DNA of 64,000 bases from Methanothermobacter sp. (GTDB taxonomy: Archaea > Methanobacteriota > Methanobacteria > Methanobacteriales > Methanothermobacteraceae). The notes below the pieces were generated by a model. The model made no database searches. It was not told the origin of the DNA and was given only the letters and a program-made list of their open reading frames with translations. Location: assembly GCF_030055425.1 (NCBI RefSeq), contig NZ_JASFYE010000003.1:127350-191349 (forward strand), given 5' to 3'. This document shows, in pieces, positions 49,216 to 55,527 of the stretch. Both the position numbers and the translations under genes were made by a program. The first letter of the stretch is position 1. Each line of letters opens with the position of its first letter.

Positions 49216-50262
49216 ATGAGGAGGGAGTTCCAGGTCCTGATATTTATCCTGCTCTTCTCCTCAGGATACTATCTTCTTAATTTTACTGTCCTGGAATCTC
49301 TTGGTATGGGAATTCTGAGCCTCCCCCTTACATTTCTTCTACCGGCAGCCATAATCTCCGAGAGGGTATACCCATCATTTATCTCAAGGGCTGCCTATGT
49401 GGTTTCCATGATATGGGTGGGAATGGCTGTTTACATCCTCATTGGCCTTGGGGTAACCTTTGCAGCATCCCTTGTTCCAGGTATTCCGTTCTCCCCTATC
49501 CCTGCGGCGGCCTTCTCCGTTATAATGGTTTTCTATGGGCTTTTGAAGGGCTGGAATATTGAGGTCAGGACTGTTAGGATCCCATTTCCATGCAGCGATA
49601 AGCTGAGGCTGGTGCAGATTTCAGATCTTCATGTGGGGACTGTGAGGTCAGGGGGTTTCATCAGGAGGGTTTCTTCTCTTATCTCTGAAATTGAACCTGA
49701 TGCCGTCCTCATAACAGGTGACCTCCTGGATGGTTCAAGGCCCGTTGAAGTTTCAACACTCTCCGAGCTTCAGGCAGATGTACCCGTATTTTTTGTTTCT
49801 GGCAACCATGACACCTATTCAGGGGACTTCAGGTCCGCAGTGGAGGGGGCGGGTATCATGTGTATTGATCAGCGCGTTGTTGATTTCAGGGGGGTGCAGG
49901 TTGCAGGTGTGGGTTATTCGATGGAGAGACATTCTCTTCCTGCAATCCTTGATATAATGGAATTTGACCCGAGGAGGCCCCTCATACTTCTTCATCACCT
50001 TCCTGTTGACTGGGATGACGCCAGGGAAATGGGTGTTGACCTCCAGCTATCCGGCCATACGCATGGCGGGCAGTTCTACCCCTTCAACCTCCTTGTTGGC
50101 ATGATGTTCCCCTTTATCAGGGGCCTTTATGAGGATTCAGGACGTTTTCTATATGTTTCACAGGGCACAGGCACATGGGGGCCACCTCTTCGTATAGGAT
50201 CATCCTGTGAGGTCACGGTTATTGAACTTATTCCCTCTGATCATGGCTTCAATGGAGATTAA
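49216..50262 (+). CDS. Membrane-anchored metallophosphoesterase
   Basis: A 348-residue protein with about three to four membrane helices in the first 115 residues, then a calcineurin-like phosphoesterase domain. All metal motifs are present: SDLHVG, GDLLDG, GNHD, HHLP and GHTHGGQ. The architecture is like bacterial YkuE/YaeI, which cleave lipid-linked phosphoesters. It follows mmp7 by four bases, so it is likely cotranscribed with the MCR activation genes, but no functional tie is evident. Confidence 0.88.
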   Translation: MRREFQVLIFILLFSSGYYLLNFTVLESLGMGILSLPLTFLLPAAIISERVYPSFISRAAYVVSMIWVGMAVYILIGLGVTFAASLVPGIPFSPIPAAAFSVIMVFYGLLKGWNIEVRTVRIPFPCSDKLRLVQISDLHVGTVRSGGFIRRVSSLISEIEPDAVLITGDLLDGSRPVEVSTLSELQADVPVFFVSGNHDTYSGDFRSAVEGAGIMCIDQRVVDFRGVQVAGVGYSMERHSLPAILDIMEFDPRRPLILLHHLPVDWDDAREMGVDLQLSGHTHGGQFYPFNLLVGMMFPFIRGLYEDSGRFLYVSQGTGTWGPPLRIGSSCEVTVIELIPSDHGFNGD

Positions 50263-50360: not shown

Positions 50361-50393
50361 CTTTAAATACAATTTTTGAATATATATTCAAAA
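50361..50393 (+). promoter_or_regulatory. TATA box and 20-bp perfect palindrome upstream of UPF0251
   Basis: A TATA-like CTTTAAATAC (50361-50370) is followed by TTTTGAATATATATTCAAAA (50374-50393), which is its own reverse complement over 20 bases and ends one base before the ATG at 50395. Placement over the expected transcription start and immediately ahead of an HTH protein gene suggests an autoregulatory operator on a leaderless transcript. Confidence 0.65.
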
Positions 50394-50394
50394 C

Positions 50395-50964
50395 ATGCCT
50401 AGACCAAGAAGATACAGGAGAATCCTGGGAGAACCCCGTGTGGTTGCATTTTCCCCGGAAGCCGGTGAAGAAGAAGTTGAGGTTGAGATAACCCTCGATG
50501 AATTTGAGGCTGTCAGGTTAAGGGACTACCATGACATAAAACAGAAAAAGGCTGCTGAAATCATGGGTATATCACAGCCAACATTTCACAGGACACTGAC
50601 ATCCGCACGGGCCAAGATAGCAGAGGCACTGGTCGAGGGCAGACCAATAATACTGAAAGGAGGTGATTACATCACAGACAGAAGAAGATACAAGTGCATG
50701 GACTGCCAGTTTGAGTGGATCTCACCTGAAAAGGAATACAAAAAGTGCCCAGACTGTGATTCAGAAAACATAACGCTGGTATCAGCAGATACACTACCAA
50801 GGATGGGAAGGGGAGGCTTCGGAAGAGGCCTTGGCGCTGGACGTGGGGCACCACGTGTCTGCAAATGCATTGAATGCGGATACGAGGCACCAAAAACACC
50901 TGGAGTTCCATGCAGAATGGAGAAATGTCCAGAGTGCGGCGCACCAATGTGTGGAGCCGACTGA
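50395..50964 (+). CDS. UPF0251 (DUF134) HTH protein with two zinc ribbons
   Basis: A 189-residue putative regulator. Residues 1-90 are the DUF134 domain with a sigma-70-like helix-turn-helix (KKAAEIMGISQPTFHRTLTS, about 52-71). A first zinc ribbon follows (Cys101/104 and 118/121), then a Gly/Arg-rich linker (about 136-152) and a second Cys cluster (156, 158, 161, 173, 178, 181). Most DUF134 proteins lack this double-ribbon tail, so the C-terminal half is a lineage addition. No ribosome site precedes ATG 50395. The adjoining palindrome suggests self-repression. Confidence 0.85.
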   Translation: MPRPRRYRRILGEPRVVAFSPEAGEEEVEVEITLDEFEAVRLRDYHDIKQKKAAEIMGISQPTFHRTLTSARAKIAEALVEGRPIILKGGDYITDRRRYKCMDCQFEWISPEKEYKKCPDCDSENITLVSADTLPRMGRGGFGRGLGAGRGAPRVCKCIECGYEAPKTPGVPCRMEKCPECGAPMCGAD

Positions 50965-51353: not shown

Positions 51354-52646
51354 CTAAAGTTTCCTCTTCAACATACGCGTAACAGTTTCTATATGCTTCT
51401 GCTGTTCCCTGGCCTCCTTCTGAAGTGACATCAGGAGTTCATTGGTCACAGGGATGGGCATGCTCCTGAATACGTATGAATCAAGCATGAAACTGAATGC
51501 CCTCTCCTCAGCCAGACTCCTGAACTTCCTGTCTGATGGCTCCATGAATACAGGGTTATCCTCATCTTCAAGGCCCTTAACCTCCTCACCAAGTTCCGTG
51601 CCTGGTATCGGTTCAGCGATGCTCACAAAGTAGTCGTCGAGCATGAGTTCATCTGCAAGTTCCAGGGTCTCCTCATAGTCTCTTTCATCTTCACCGGGGT
51701 ACCCCACTATGAATGACCCTGCAACCTTCAGATTATGCTCCCTGGCAAGTTCAACAGCCTCAATAACATCCCCTGGTTTGATGCCCTTCTTCATCCTTCT
51801 GAGGATCCTTCTGCTCCCTGACTCTATACCATAGAACACCCAGCCATTGGAGTACTCTGATATGGCATCGAGGATCTCAGGGGTCACCATATCAACCCGT
51901 ATATCAGGCACCGTCAGATTCCGGGGCCCTGTGATTTCACTTATGTCCCTGAGGAGCTCAGTGAATGCATCCTCATCAACACCCCTGAACCTGCTGCTCC
52001 CGTAGAGTGTTCCGGTTCCCCCGCTTATTGCAAACCTCCGGGCCCCGGATTTCCTCAGTTCCCTGACCTCCACCACGATATCCTCCAGGGGTCTGCTGCG
52101 GACCTCACGGCCGAAGAATTCCGGGACCTGGCAGAATGTGCAGTTACCTGGGCAGCCCCTGTGGGTTTCAATGTAGACACTGGCACTCCTTATGTTCTCC
52201 TGTGAGATATCTGCAGGAACAAGTGGGAGGGTCCTTTTCATGGAGCAGCGGGTTGGTTCATTGATTATAAACCCTTCAGGGGATTTAAATGCTGCCCCGG
52301 GCATTTCAGACGCTTCCAGACTTCCAGATGCAACCTCCATGGCCATCCCCACCTTATCCTCACCCTCGCCCTGAATTACAAGGTCAACGTCGAGGTGGCG
52401 GAGTACAAGTTCAGGGTCCATGCTCACGGGACCCCCCACCACCCTGAAACCCCGTATATTATTAATAATATCCCTGTACCTCAGGAGGTGGATGGTGGAC
52501 TGGAGGCTTATGAAAACCACATCTGCGCCGGAACCCTCAAGGCCCTTCCTGAGTTCAACGCTGCAGCCAAGGTCCCTCAGGGCACCGGCAATGAGCATTG
52601 AACCGTAGGTGTAGTGCTCTGGTGTTAAAACAACCACACGAGTCAT
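51354..52646 (-). CDS. B12-binding radical SAM protein, probable McrA glutamine C-methyltransferase
   Basis: A 430-residue protein. The N-terminal ~110 residues look like a cobalamin-binding Rossmann domain (VVVLTPEHYTYGSMLIAGAL, then VVFISLQSTIHLLRY, GEGEDKV). The radical SAM domain has Cys165, Cys169 and Cys172 (CPGNCTFC), with FAISGGTGTLYGSSRF and GIESGSRRILRRMKKGI following. It overlaps mmp10 by four bases and lies beside mcr. B12-dependent radical SAM methylases modify McrA; methylation of Gln400 (MgmA) is the natural guess for this one because Mmp10 methylates Arg271. This assignment is inference from context. Confidence 0.7.
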   Translation of the reverse strand: MTRVVVLTPEHYTYGSMLIAGALRDLGCSVELRKGLEGSGADVVFISLQSTIHLLRYRDIINNIRGFRVVGGPVSMDPELVLRHLDVDLVIQGEGEDKVGMAMEVASGSLEASEMPGAAFKSPEGFIINEPTRCSMKRTLPLVPADISQENIRSASVYIETHRGCPGNCTFCQVPEFFGREVRSRPLEDIVVEVRELRKSGARRFAISGGTGTLYGSSRFRGVDEDAFTELLRDISEITGPRNLTVPDIRVDMVTPEILDAISEYSNGWVFYGIESGSRRILRRMKKGIKPGDVIEAVELAREHNLKVAGSFIVGYPGEDERDYEETLELADELMLDDYFVSIAEPIPGTELGEEVKGLEDEDNPVFMEPSDRKFRSLAEERAFSFMLDSYVFRSMPIPVTNELLMSLQKEAREQQKHIETVTRMLKRKL

Positions 52647-53890
52647 TCAGAAGCACCGAAGAAATTTATGGCCTGTATAAGTTCATAGAATGCTTCCATC
52701 TCCCGCTCTATAACATCATACTGGGACAGCGTACCGCTCATCTCCCCATCAACGGTGAGCCTTTCAGGACCCCTTATGACTATCCGGTCGGTACCATCCC
52801 GGCTTAGAACCTCCTTTGCCTGCATTTCATGGACAAATGCCCTGCCAGGGATTATCACTGTTTCCTTAAGTTCGCTGAGGTCCACAGCCTCGAGGTCCCT
52901 CCTGGTGATGAGGCATGCTATGTCCTTCTCAACACCAACAACGTTCACCATATCCTCTGCCCCAAGGTTCCTTATTATCCTCCTTATGTAGGGGGCTGCA
53001 ATGGATCCTGTGATTATGGTTGCCTCTCCCCTGATTTCAGGGAGGATCTCAAGGTACTCCCTGCTTGAGTCATCTGCAAGGACAAAGGGTGTACCGTTTT
53101 CAGGGTCGCAGACAGGTGTCCCTGTAACCCTGAGATTGAACTCCCGGTCAACCATCCTCACAAGGTCCTCAAATTCCTGGACTGTGTGCGGCTCTATACC
53201 CTCAATTATTGGCTCATTGCCGAGTATCAGCCCCTGGTGCTCATAGTTTGCAAACCGCATCATTATGAATCCAGTGGCCCCCCACTCCTCAAGTCTGGAG
53301 CAGGTTTCAAGGAGGTCATCACCATCATTCACACCTGGTATGATCACTGCTGCAGCGTGGACCTCACAGGATTCACAGAATATCCTGAGGGCTTCCAGTG
53401 CATTTTCAGCGTTCCTATCACGCATCCACTCCCTCCTCAGGAGGGGGTTCGCTGAGAACACCGTGAAGGTTACCTCATCCACACCATTTCCAATGAGCCG
53501 GGATGCCAGTTCAGGGTCATCCATGCCCTTACCGCTTGTGTATCCCAGGTGTATGGGGATCCCAAACTCACTAAGCCCAGATGTCAGCTCCTCAAGGTGT
53601 GGGTAGCAGCTCACATCACCCCCACCGCTGATGTTTATCTTCAGGTCCTTATCCTGAGTGTTCTGCATCATCAGTGTCGTCTGCACGTTACCCATGACAA
53701 GGAATGGTGGTAAAAATTCCTTTCCCCTCTCTGCAACATCAGTTCCACAGGTTTCACAGCCCACCCTCCCCGGGGAGCAGTTCCTGCAGCCGAAGGGTTC
53801 AAATTCCCCCACCTTTCTGAAGTAACAGTACCTGCAGAATCCCCTGCAGTCCTTGCCAGGTATACCACCCAAATCCGCTATTATCTGCAT
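52643..53890 (-). CDS. mmp10: Methanogenesis marker 10, McrA arginine C-methyltransferase
   Basis: A 415-residue radical SAM enzyme. The opening DLGGIPGKDCRGFCRYCYFR has the cluster cysteines 15, 19 and 22. A second Cys-rich stretch (CRNCSPGRVGCETCG) follows, then INISGGGDVSCYPHLEEL, all diagnostic of Mmp10. It is the B12-dependent enzyme that installs 5-methylarginine in McrA (Arg271 here). It starts at ATG 53890 about 25-30 bases after a TATA-like AAATTATATTTAA on the minus strand, so it is probably leaderless, and reads away from mcrB. Confidence 0.9.
   Translation of the reverse strand: MQIIADLGGIPGKDCRGFCRYCYFRKVGEFEPFGCRNCSPGRVGCETCGTDVAERGKEFLPPFLVMGNVQTTLMMQNTQDKDLKINISGGGDVSCYPHLEELTSGLSEFGIPIHLGYTSGKGMDDPELASRLIGNGVDEVTFTVFSANPLLRREWMRDRNAENALEALRIFCESCEVHAAAVIIPGVNDGDDLLETCSRLEEWGATGFIMMRFANYEHQGLILGNEPIIEGIEPHTVQEFEDLVRMVDREFNLRVTGTPVCDPENGTPFVLADDSSREYLEILPEIRGEATIITGSIAAPYIRRIIRNLGAEDMVNVVGVEKDIACLITRRDLEAVDLSELKETVIIPGRAFVHEMQAKEVLSRDGTDRIVIRGPERLTVDGEMSGTLSQYDVIEREMEAFYELIQAINFFGASE

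Positions 53891-54088: not shown

Positions 54089-55527
<1,439 letters not shown>

Follow-up and report, generated by a model that had tools for sequence, protein, structure and literature searches.

What reads the perfect palindrome that separates the TATA box of a UPF0251/DUF134 gene of Methanothermobacter sp. from its start codon? The sequence TTTTGAATATATATTCAAAA is its own reverse complement and lies at exactly positions 50374-50393 of the window, by which we mean the whole stretch of 64,000 nucleotides that was analysed. The TATA box of the UPF0251 gene promoter, TTTAAATA, was assigned from the sequence and from its spacing to the palindrome and occupies positions 50362-50369 on the forward strand, and the start codon ATG of the gene is at 50395. 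A first-pass annotation of this DNA had described a perfect 20-bp palindrome between TATA box and start codon, and the exact coordinates and the self-complementarity of the site bear this description out. Within the palindrome, positions 50377-50390 form a 14-bp core, TGAATATATATTCA, delimited by its conservation and by its co-occurrence with DUF134; neither the palindrome nor the core has a strand. No other perfect palindrome of at least 20 bp exists in the 64-kb window, where 0.1 would be expected under a first-order Markov model (mean of 30 simulations), and for 132 bp composed like the intergenic region the Markov model gave 0.0002. The palindrome was also the single match at up to 3 mismatches in the window, against an expectation of 0.01 from shuffled sequences, and TTTTGAAN6TTCAAAA was found at one place in the genome when its 12 contigs were searched. 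As the sole perfect 20-bp palindrome of the window, the site is taken to be real rather than a product of chance. We propose that it is the operator of the downstream UPF0251/DUF134 protein, which quite probably acts as a dimer to repress its own gene and to control a small metal-related regulon.

The gene itself (50395-50964, forward strand) encodes a protein of 189 amino acids, and a profile search matched residues 3-94 to PF02001 with 140.6 bits (E 2.5e-41), against a curated cut-off of 27. An AlphaFold2 model of a single chain had a mean pLDDT of 78 and a pTM of 0.48, with residues 31-90 in blocks at pLDDT 84-97 and a poor stretch at residues 132-150. In this model a helix-turn-helix of the sigma-region-4/DeoR-like type is predicted at residues 34-81 (50494-50637, forward strand). 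Foldseek matched it to sigma-factor region 4 and to the DeoR DNA-binding domain with a probability near 1.0 and an rmsd of mostly 0.6-1.0 across about 40-50 columns, at E values above 0.01 and with zero matches at an E of 0.001 or less; the Sigma70_r4_2 profile gave an E of 4.1e-5 and 23.6 bits, below its cut-off of 25.7. The DUF134 protein is thus predicted to possess a helix-turn-helix resembling sigma region 4. The domains Fe_dep_repress and Fe_dep_repr_C were absent among the Pfam matches of the protein, and a sequence search for a solved relative of the whole protein returned none, the best hit (E 0.019) being an MCM chain over the region of ribbon 1. On the opposite strand beside the UPF0251 gene, genes for the MCR-modifying TIGR04014 glutamine C-methyltransferase and TIGR03278 Mmp10 were noted (51354-53890, 54196-55527 region), and the ORF at 54196 looks by eye like mcrB; the two modifying enzymes mark the organism as a methanogen.

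Ten cysteines of the protein were placed in two zinc ribbons by a cysteine alignment of orthologues, namely ribbon 1 (C101, C104, C118 and C121; 50683-50784, forward strand) and ribbon 2 (C156, C158, C161, C173, C178 and C181; 50857-50955, forward strand), the second of which is absent from the Archaeoglobales proteins examined. The PF02001 match, the model and the ten cysteines agree with the earlier description of a helix-turn-helix protein with two zinc ribbons. The four cysteines of ribbon 1 and the six of ribbon 2 are invariant across six orthologues of the order, and in a set of 30 aligned sequences, several of which were entered as partial sequences, ribbon 1 was complete in 20 and ribbon 2 in 13. 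Full-length Archaeoglobales proteins, whose genes retain the site, have ribbon 1 only. One protein read to its stop (L191) has ribbon 2 only, and an Altiarchaeotal protein, also read to its stop (L170), has neither ribbon, with a one-mismatch, near-perfect palindrome, TTATGAATTTATATTCATAA, before its gene. Because the site is kept by Archaeoglobales with ribbon 1 only and by L170 with neither, the double ribbon is disfavoured as the sensor, and we would place low confidence in the predicted zinc ribbons in that role.

DUF134 proteins were found by profile search in 30 of 60 relatives. A lack of the palindrome before the orthologous genes of closely related strains had been named beforehand as an outcome against autorepression; the palindrome is present there in each of the eight genomes of the genus, at an identical position before the UPF0251/DUF134 gene, and the position is also identical in the four genomes of a second family of the order. 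The 30 orthologue loci of the order were read in the direction of the gene: 25 have the exact 14-bp core no more than 220 bp upstream, two more (L014 and L019) have a one-mismatch core, and at the remaining three (G034, G049 and G050) the core is 392-481 bp upstream. In G034 and its sister G048 a core precedes the gene before DUF134, and that gene resembles the NifX-like end of MrpORP. Perfect palindromes of 20 or 22 bp were observed at 24/30 of these loci, with TTTT..AAAA arms in two families (12 loci together) and TTAT..ATAA arms in a third (12 loci), in which a few sites are imperfect or asymmetric (L014, L016 and L017). That both arms have changed together fits two like subunits reading them, and the symmetry of the site and its co-varying arms suggest that the protein would bind as a dimer. 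In one genus (L029-L031, L104-L106, L108 and L109), a one-mismatch copy of the core stands 17 bp past the first, as in TTATGAATATATATTCATAATAAATATATATTCATAATG, and the pair is predicted to be a tandem operator. In a close relative (G003, locus L003) the DUF134 protein stops at residue 155 and has lost ribbon 2, and the operator is unchanged.

If the palindrome is the operator of this protein, do the two occur together across genomes? Among 151 genomes of the archaeal phylum, DUF134 was found in 57 and the core in 66; 55 genomes had both, 2 had DUF134 only, 11 had the core only and 83 had neither (Fisher 2e-27, a value that overstates independence, the genomes being related). The core was therefore present in 55/57 genomes with DUF134 vs 11/94 without it, whereas the control, a reversed core pattern of the same composition that is also palindromic, was present in 0/57 and 11/94. 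Since the reversed control also reached 11/94, the 11 genomes with the core only represent the background level. The two genomes with DUF134 only were G053, which contains two one-mismatch copies, and G075, which is 64% complete. Within one genus of 67 genomes, 18 had both, none had DUF134 only, 5 had the core only and 44 had neither (Fisher 4e-12, kinship ignored). The core lay less than 800 bp upstream of the DUF134 gene in 53 of the 57 genomes, including G150 at -17. The genomes without an exact core near the DUF134 gene were G060, G075, G053 and G074; G060, a member of the same class, has a site at another gene and none before DUF134. We hold with high confidence that site and protein belong together. 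Computation establishes the site, its conservation, its spacing from the TATA box, its joint occurrence with the protein and the identity of some of the neighbouring genes.

The position of the site within the promoter was then considered. In this genome the TATA centre and the palindrome centre are 18 bp apart, and a centre spacing of 17-19 bp was found in 24/28 genomes, compared with 18% in shuffles. These 28 genomes, many of them close relatives, are those of 30 with an exact core within 500 bp, and in the other four, all of one genus, two boxes tied, which gave a spacing of 14 bp; these four were counted as misses. The first TATA search covered the upstream side of the core only, and the downstream side and the shuffles were added as a control; the best TATA score, 7-8 of 8, was reached upstream of the core in 28/28 genomes and downstream of it in 1/28. 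The distance from the core to the start codon, however, varies from 17 to 481 bp. In the own genus the TATA centre is 29 bp from the ATG and no ribosome-binding site could be seen by eye, and a leaderless or nearly leaderless transcript of the UPF0251 gene is plausible. Archaeal repressors bind downstream of the TATA box. A spacing that is fixed with respect to the TATA box but free with respect to the ATG puts the palindrome where such repressors sit and thus supports autorepression, and the conserved inverted repeat overlaps the promoter of the UPF0251 gene itself, as expected for an autorepressor. The autorepression proposed in the first-pass annotation is well supported by orthologue conservation, TATA spacing and the co-occurrence of site and gene, and we hold with fair confidence that repression, rather than activation, would be the effect of the predicted operator. 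The scheme we infer is that, in a dimer, each helix-turn-helix would contact one TTTTGAATAT arm; the bound dimer, placed after the TATA box and before the start of transcription, would block the assembly or the start of RNA polymerase, so that the gene would repress itself.

The first-pass annotation had also proposed a search of the genome for further copies in promoters. This yielded one more exact core and no others: the exact 14-bp core is present at two places in the own genome, the second being G000:C1:304104, and no one-mismatch copy was detected there. At up to 2 mismatches the own genome contained 12 sites (2 of them exact) vs 7 for the reversed control, which gives no sign of a regulon of weak sites. 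Each of the eight genomes of the genus has exactly two copies of the core. The second site lies in a divergent promoter, with CTTAAATAGGTTTTGAATATATATTCA leading to a short DtxR-like gene one way and a TIGR04076 gene the other way, and its palindrome is intact in all eight genomes. In the DtxR direction the same layout of TATA box and palindrome was seen in 8/8 genomes of the genus, and in the TIGR04076 direction the site is, by eye, upstream of a TATA-like box, a position compatible with activation or with no effect on that gene. A published table gives a TIGR04076 protein a potential role in redox reactions or in the metabolism of iron clusters (PMC8667426). The short DtxR-like gene looks broken in G003, G005 and G007 (a frame split, or a stop plus an altered start). 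This DtxR-like gene and the TIGR04076 gene divergent from it would likely constitute the rest of the regulon in the own genome.

Copies of the site recur in related archaea close to genes connected with iron and Fe-S clusters. The neighbours confirmed by profile were Mrp/NBP35 ATPases (L068 and L226), NifX-like genes (L078 and L219), DUF5320 genes (L216 and L219), a gene for an Fe-S-cluster protein (L222), a DtxR-like gene at a Lokiarchaeal site (L223), a FeoA gene about 430 bp from the site (L216) and, at L220, the DUF134 gene followed by a cation-efflux gene. By eye, we also recognised Mrp at L072 and L227, NifX-like genes at L079 and L226, a DUF5320-like gene at L235, Fe-S proteins at L230, L232 and L234, cation efflux genes at L217, L221 and L229, and ribbon proteins without a helix-turn-helix at L069-L071, L074, L076 and L077; no evident metal-related neighbour was present at sites L073, L075, L081 and L225. 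In related archaea the targets would accordingly comprise Mrp/NBP35 ATPases, NifX-like proteins, DUF5320 proteins, Fe-S proteins and ribbon proteins lacking the helix-turn-helix. From these neighbours, iron or Fe-S status may be the signal, which we state with modest confidence; it would be sensed by the variable C-terminal part of the protein, which consists of zinc ribbons in many archaea and of a NifX-like domain in several bacteria. The metal or redox sensing that the first-pass annotation had thought possible gains indirect support from these genes.

Some other neighbours deserve mention. At L076 and L077 (G048 and G034), the gene of the two-ribbon protein without a helix-turn-helix has a 22-bp palindrome copy of its own nearby and adjoins a gene resembling the phosphoesterase gene (49216-50262) found before DUF134 in the window. 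It has the look of a DUF134 gene minus the DNA-binding half. At the Lokiarchaeal locus L224, a 20-bp copy, ATTTGAATATATATTCAAAT, stands beside a gene that by eye is peroxiredoxin-like, which hints at a connection with redox. Also by eye, a single type of MBL-fold hydrolase was seen near the sites L218 and L223 (Archaeoglobus and Lokiarchaeota) and downstream of DUF134 at L080 in one methanogen.

To follow the site outside the order, 48 distant loci were used, obtained from the 80 kept of 133 found by leaving out 32 that were titled as, or looked like, relatives of the order; the 48 include four with bacterial titles. The core was found at up to one mismatch within 150 bp upstream at 9/48 loci, and the reversed control at none; at 38/48 this upstream stretch was devoid of such a site, and one further locus had a two-mismatch copy. 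The core precedes DUF134 genes in Methanocellales (as a 22-bp palindrome), in Archaeoglobales and at one Altiarchaeotal and one Lokiarchaeal locus, and an extra Archaeoglobus copy at L229 had been missed under the automatic gene start. At loci titled Aenigm-, Woese-, Micr-, Nano- or Pacearchaeota there was no core within 150 bp upstream of the gene. In 26 distant genomes, which are those of loci hand-chosen from the 80, the exact core was present in 17, with 1-3 copies each, and the reversed control in 1. The recognition helix is conserved in the distant set partly by selection, the search having been seeded on that helix. In Archaeoglobaceae (L219, L222 and L230-L234), a second conserved element, about TCGGT..ACC and then GAAAAATTCAAATA, adjoins the palindrome; it may be the site of another regulator plus BRE/TATA.

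These data can be set against other explanations of the palindrome. One is that a metal regulator of the DtxR/MntR type reads the site, with the UPF0251 gene as just one of its targets, which would agree with the second site preceding the short DtxR-like gene in each of the eight genomes of the genus, with the Lokiarchaeal site that also lies before a DtxR-like gene, and with short-frame homologues in G038, G148 and G049, all of which have DUF134 and the core, the homologue in G038 even sharing a contig with DUF134. This explanation is weakened, and in our view improbable, because DtxR homologues are present in 139/151 genomes regardless of the core. The core occurs in 64/139 genomes with them vs 2/12 without (Fisher 0.07) and follows DUF134 instead (55/57 vs 11/94). 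In addition, among the matches listed, close orthologues of the short DtxR-like gene (at least 73% identity) are confined to the own genus, and the gene looks broken in 3/8 genomes, yet all eight keep both sites.

Nor does the arrangement favour activation, although in two cases, TIGR04076 and the DUF5320 gene of L216, the palindrome is, by eye, just upstream of a TATA-like sequence, so that an activator or dual site, with some targets (TIGR04076 and one DUF5320 gene) activated from upstream of the TATA box, can be envisaged. Before DUF134, all 28 genomes have a good TATA box upstream of the core and only one has its equal downstream, the place downstream of the TATA box is that of archaeal repressors, and the second site of the genus shows the same layout in the DtxR direction in 8/8 genomes; we therefore regard such a site as unlikely. 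The palindrome might also be no operator but a promoter element in the form of a second TATA-like box, an RNA hairpin or the site of a chromatin protein, as its centre, ATATATAT, is TATA-like and A+T-rich. However, a TATA box needs no palindrome of 20-22 bp with co-varying arms; where the gene looks leaderless, the palindrome precedes the predicted start and would not be transcribed; and, above background, the site is confined to genomes with DUF134. An explanation of this kind seems very improbable to us.

DUF134 is not restricted to archaea. In the bacterial phylum of G177, a Bacillota MAG, it was detected in 107/149 sampled genomes, 105 of them above the curated cut-off. Plasmid-borne DUF134 genes lie beside NifB/NifX-family genes in Salinivibrio and Citrobacter, and beside Mrp/NBP35, with TIGR04076 farther away, in Selenomonas; in four of seven loci a NifX-like domain is, by eye, fused to DUF134. 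The archaeal core at up to one mismatch was found at 0/37 bacterial loci in the 170 bp upstream of DUF134, the 30 chromosomal loci among them being the best-scoring ones and not a sample. A site of the TTGACATATGTYAA type at up to one mismatch was present at 9/37 loci, two of which (L258 and L259) are near-identical; the spellings when reversed gave 0/37, and shuffled sequences averaged 0. The pattern comprises four spellings, was suggested by L113 and L114, which are among the nine, and is partly derived from the same loci. For L273 and L275, also among the nine, a fixed start position was used, as the start codon was not found. In Roseburia, TTATTGACATATGTCAATAA lies upstream of DUF134, and the Selenomonas plasmid has exactly two matches to the bacterial pattern at up to one mismatch, one before Mrp and the other before DUF134. 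The half-site TTATGAACAT of L258 and L259 (TTTTGAACAT in L274) is one letter off the archaeal TTATGAATAT (TTTTGAATAT).

A tentative reading of these similarities, which we consider possible but rather doubtful, is that DUF134/UPF0251, as an ancient regulator shared by both domains, governs the trafficking of iron and Fe-S clusters through one ancestral operator half-site, its sensor having been swapped and its kind of targets kept. The half-site might have been TTATGAAYAT, where Y would be T in archaea, from methanogens to Lokiarchaeota, and C in Bacillota. On the same uncertain footing, the swapped sensors could be the zinc ribbons of many archaea and the NifX-like cluster-binding domain of several bacteria, and the targets conceivably retained would be DUF134 itself, Mrp/NBP35 and NifX-like proteins. 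Our estimate for this ancestral operator was lowered slightly because the ribbons are missing in some proteins that keep the site and because the bacterial pattern is partly circular.

A motif of this kind may be described in work on archaeal DtxR regulons. In the open-access papers covered, neither a function nor an operator or regulon for DUF134 was found. There, a DUF134 protein is called 'without any known function' (PMC7565180), UPF0251 appears solely in a mutation list (PMC5886521) and a virus protein has a predicted COG1342 domain (PMC3622292); DUF134 itself was not found in the available parts of PMC10434189, PMC7970244, PMC6155114, PMC8346489, PMC8459023 and PMC4608573 (DUF1343, DUF1345, DUF1348 and DUF1349). 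It appears that the kind of system is known and that the operator of DUF134 is undescribed in the literature covered. The family is widespread but little-studied, with members in 57/151 genomes of the archaeal phylum and in 107/149 of those sampled in the bacterial phylum, and it would become open to assay immediately with a concrete operator, a predicted regulon of small size and a signal (iron or Fe-S status) that can be tested. Strict anaerobes would thereby gain a candidate for the regulator of their Fe-S carrier genes.

Compared with known systems, the protein studied here is a clear member of UPF0251/DUF134 (PF02001). Bacterial plasmid members of this family are found beside or fused to NifX-like domains, or beside Mrp/NBP35, and the double zinc-ribbon tail occupies the place that a NifX-like domain has in several bacterial members. 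The metal-dependent repressors DtxR, MntR and IdeR (PF01325 and PF02742) act, as is proposed here, on metal-related targets through a palindromic operator that covers the promoter. They form a different family: the helix-turn-helix predicted here is sigma-region-4-like, and no DtxR domain was among the Pfam matches. The Fe-S carriers Mrp/NBP35 and MrpORP (NF041136 and PF10609) are among the genes bearing the site in related archaea, and Mrp/NBP35 on the Selenomonas plasmid carries a related palindrome; they are predicted targets rather than the regulator, and the two exact sites of the own genome lie at other genes.
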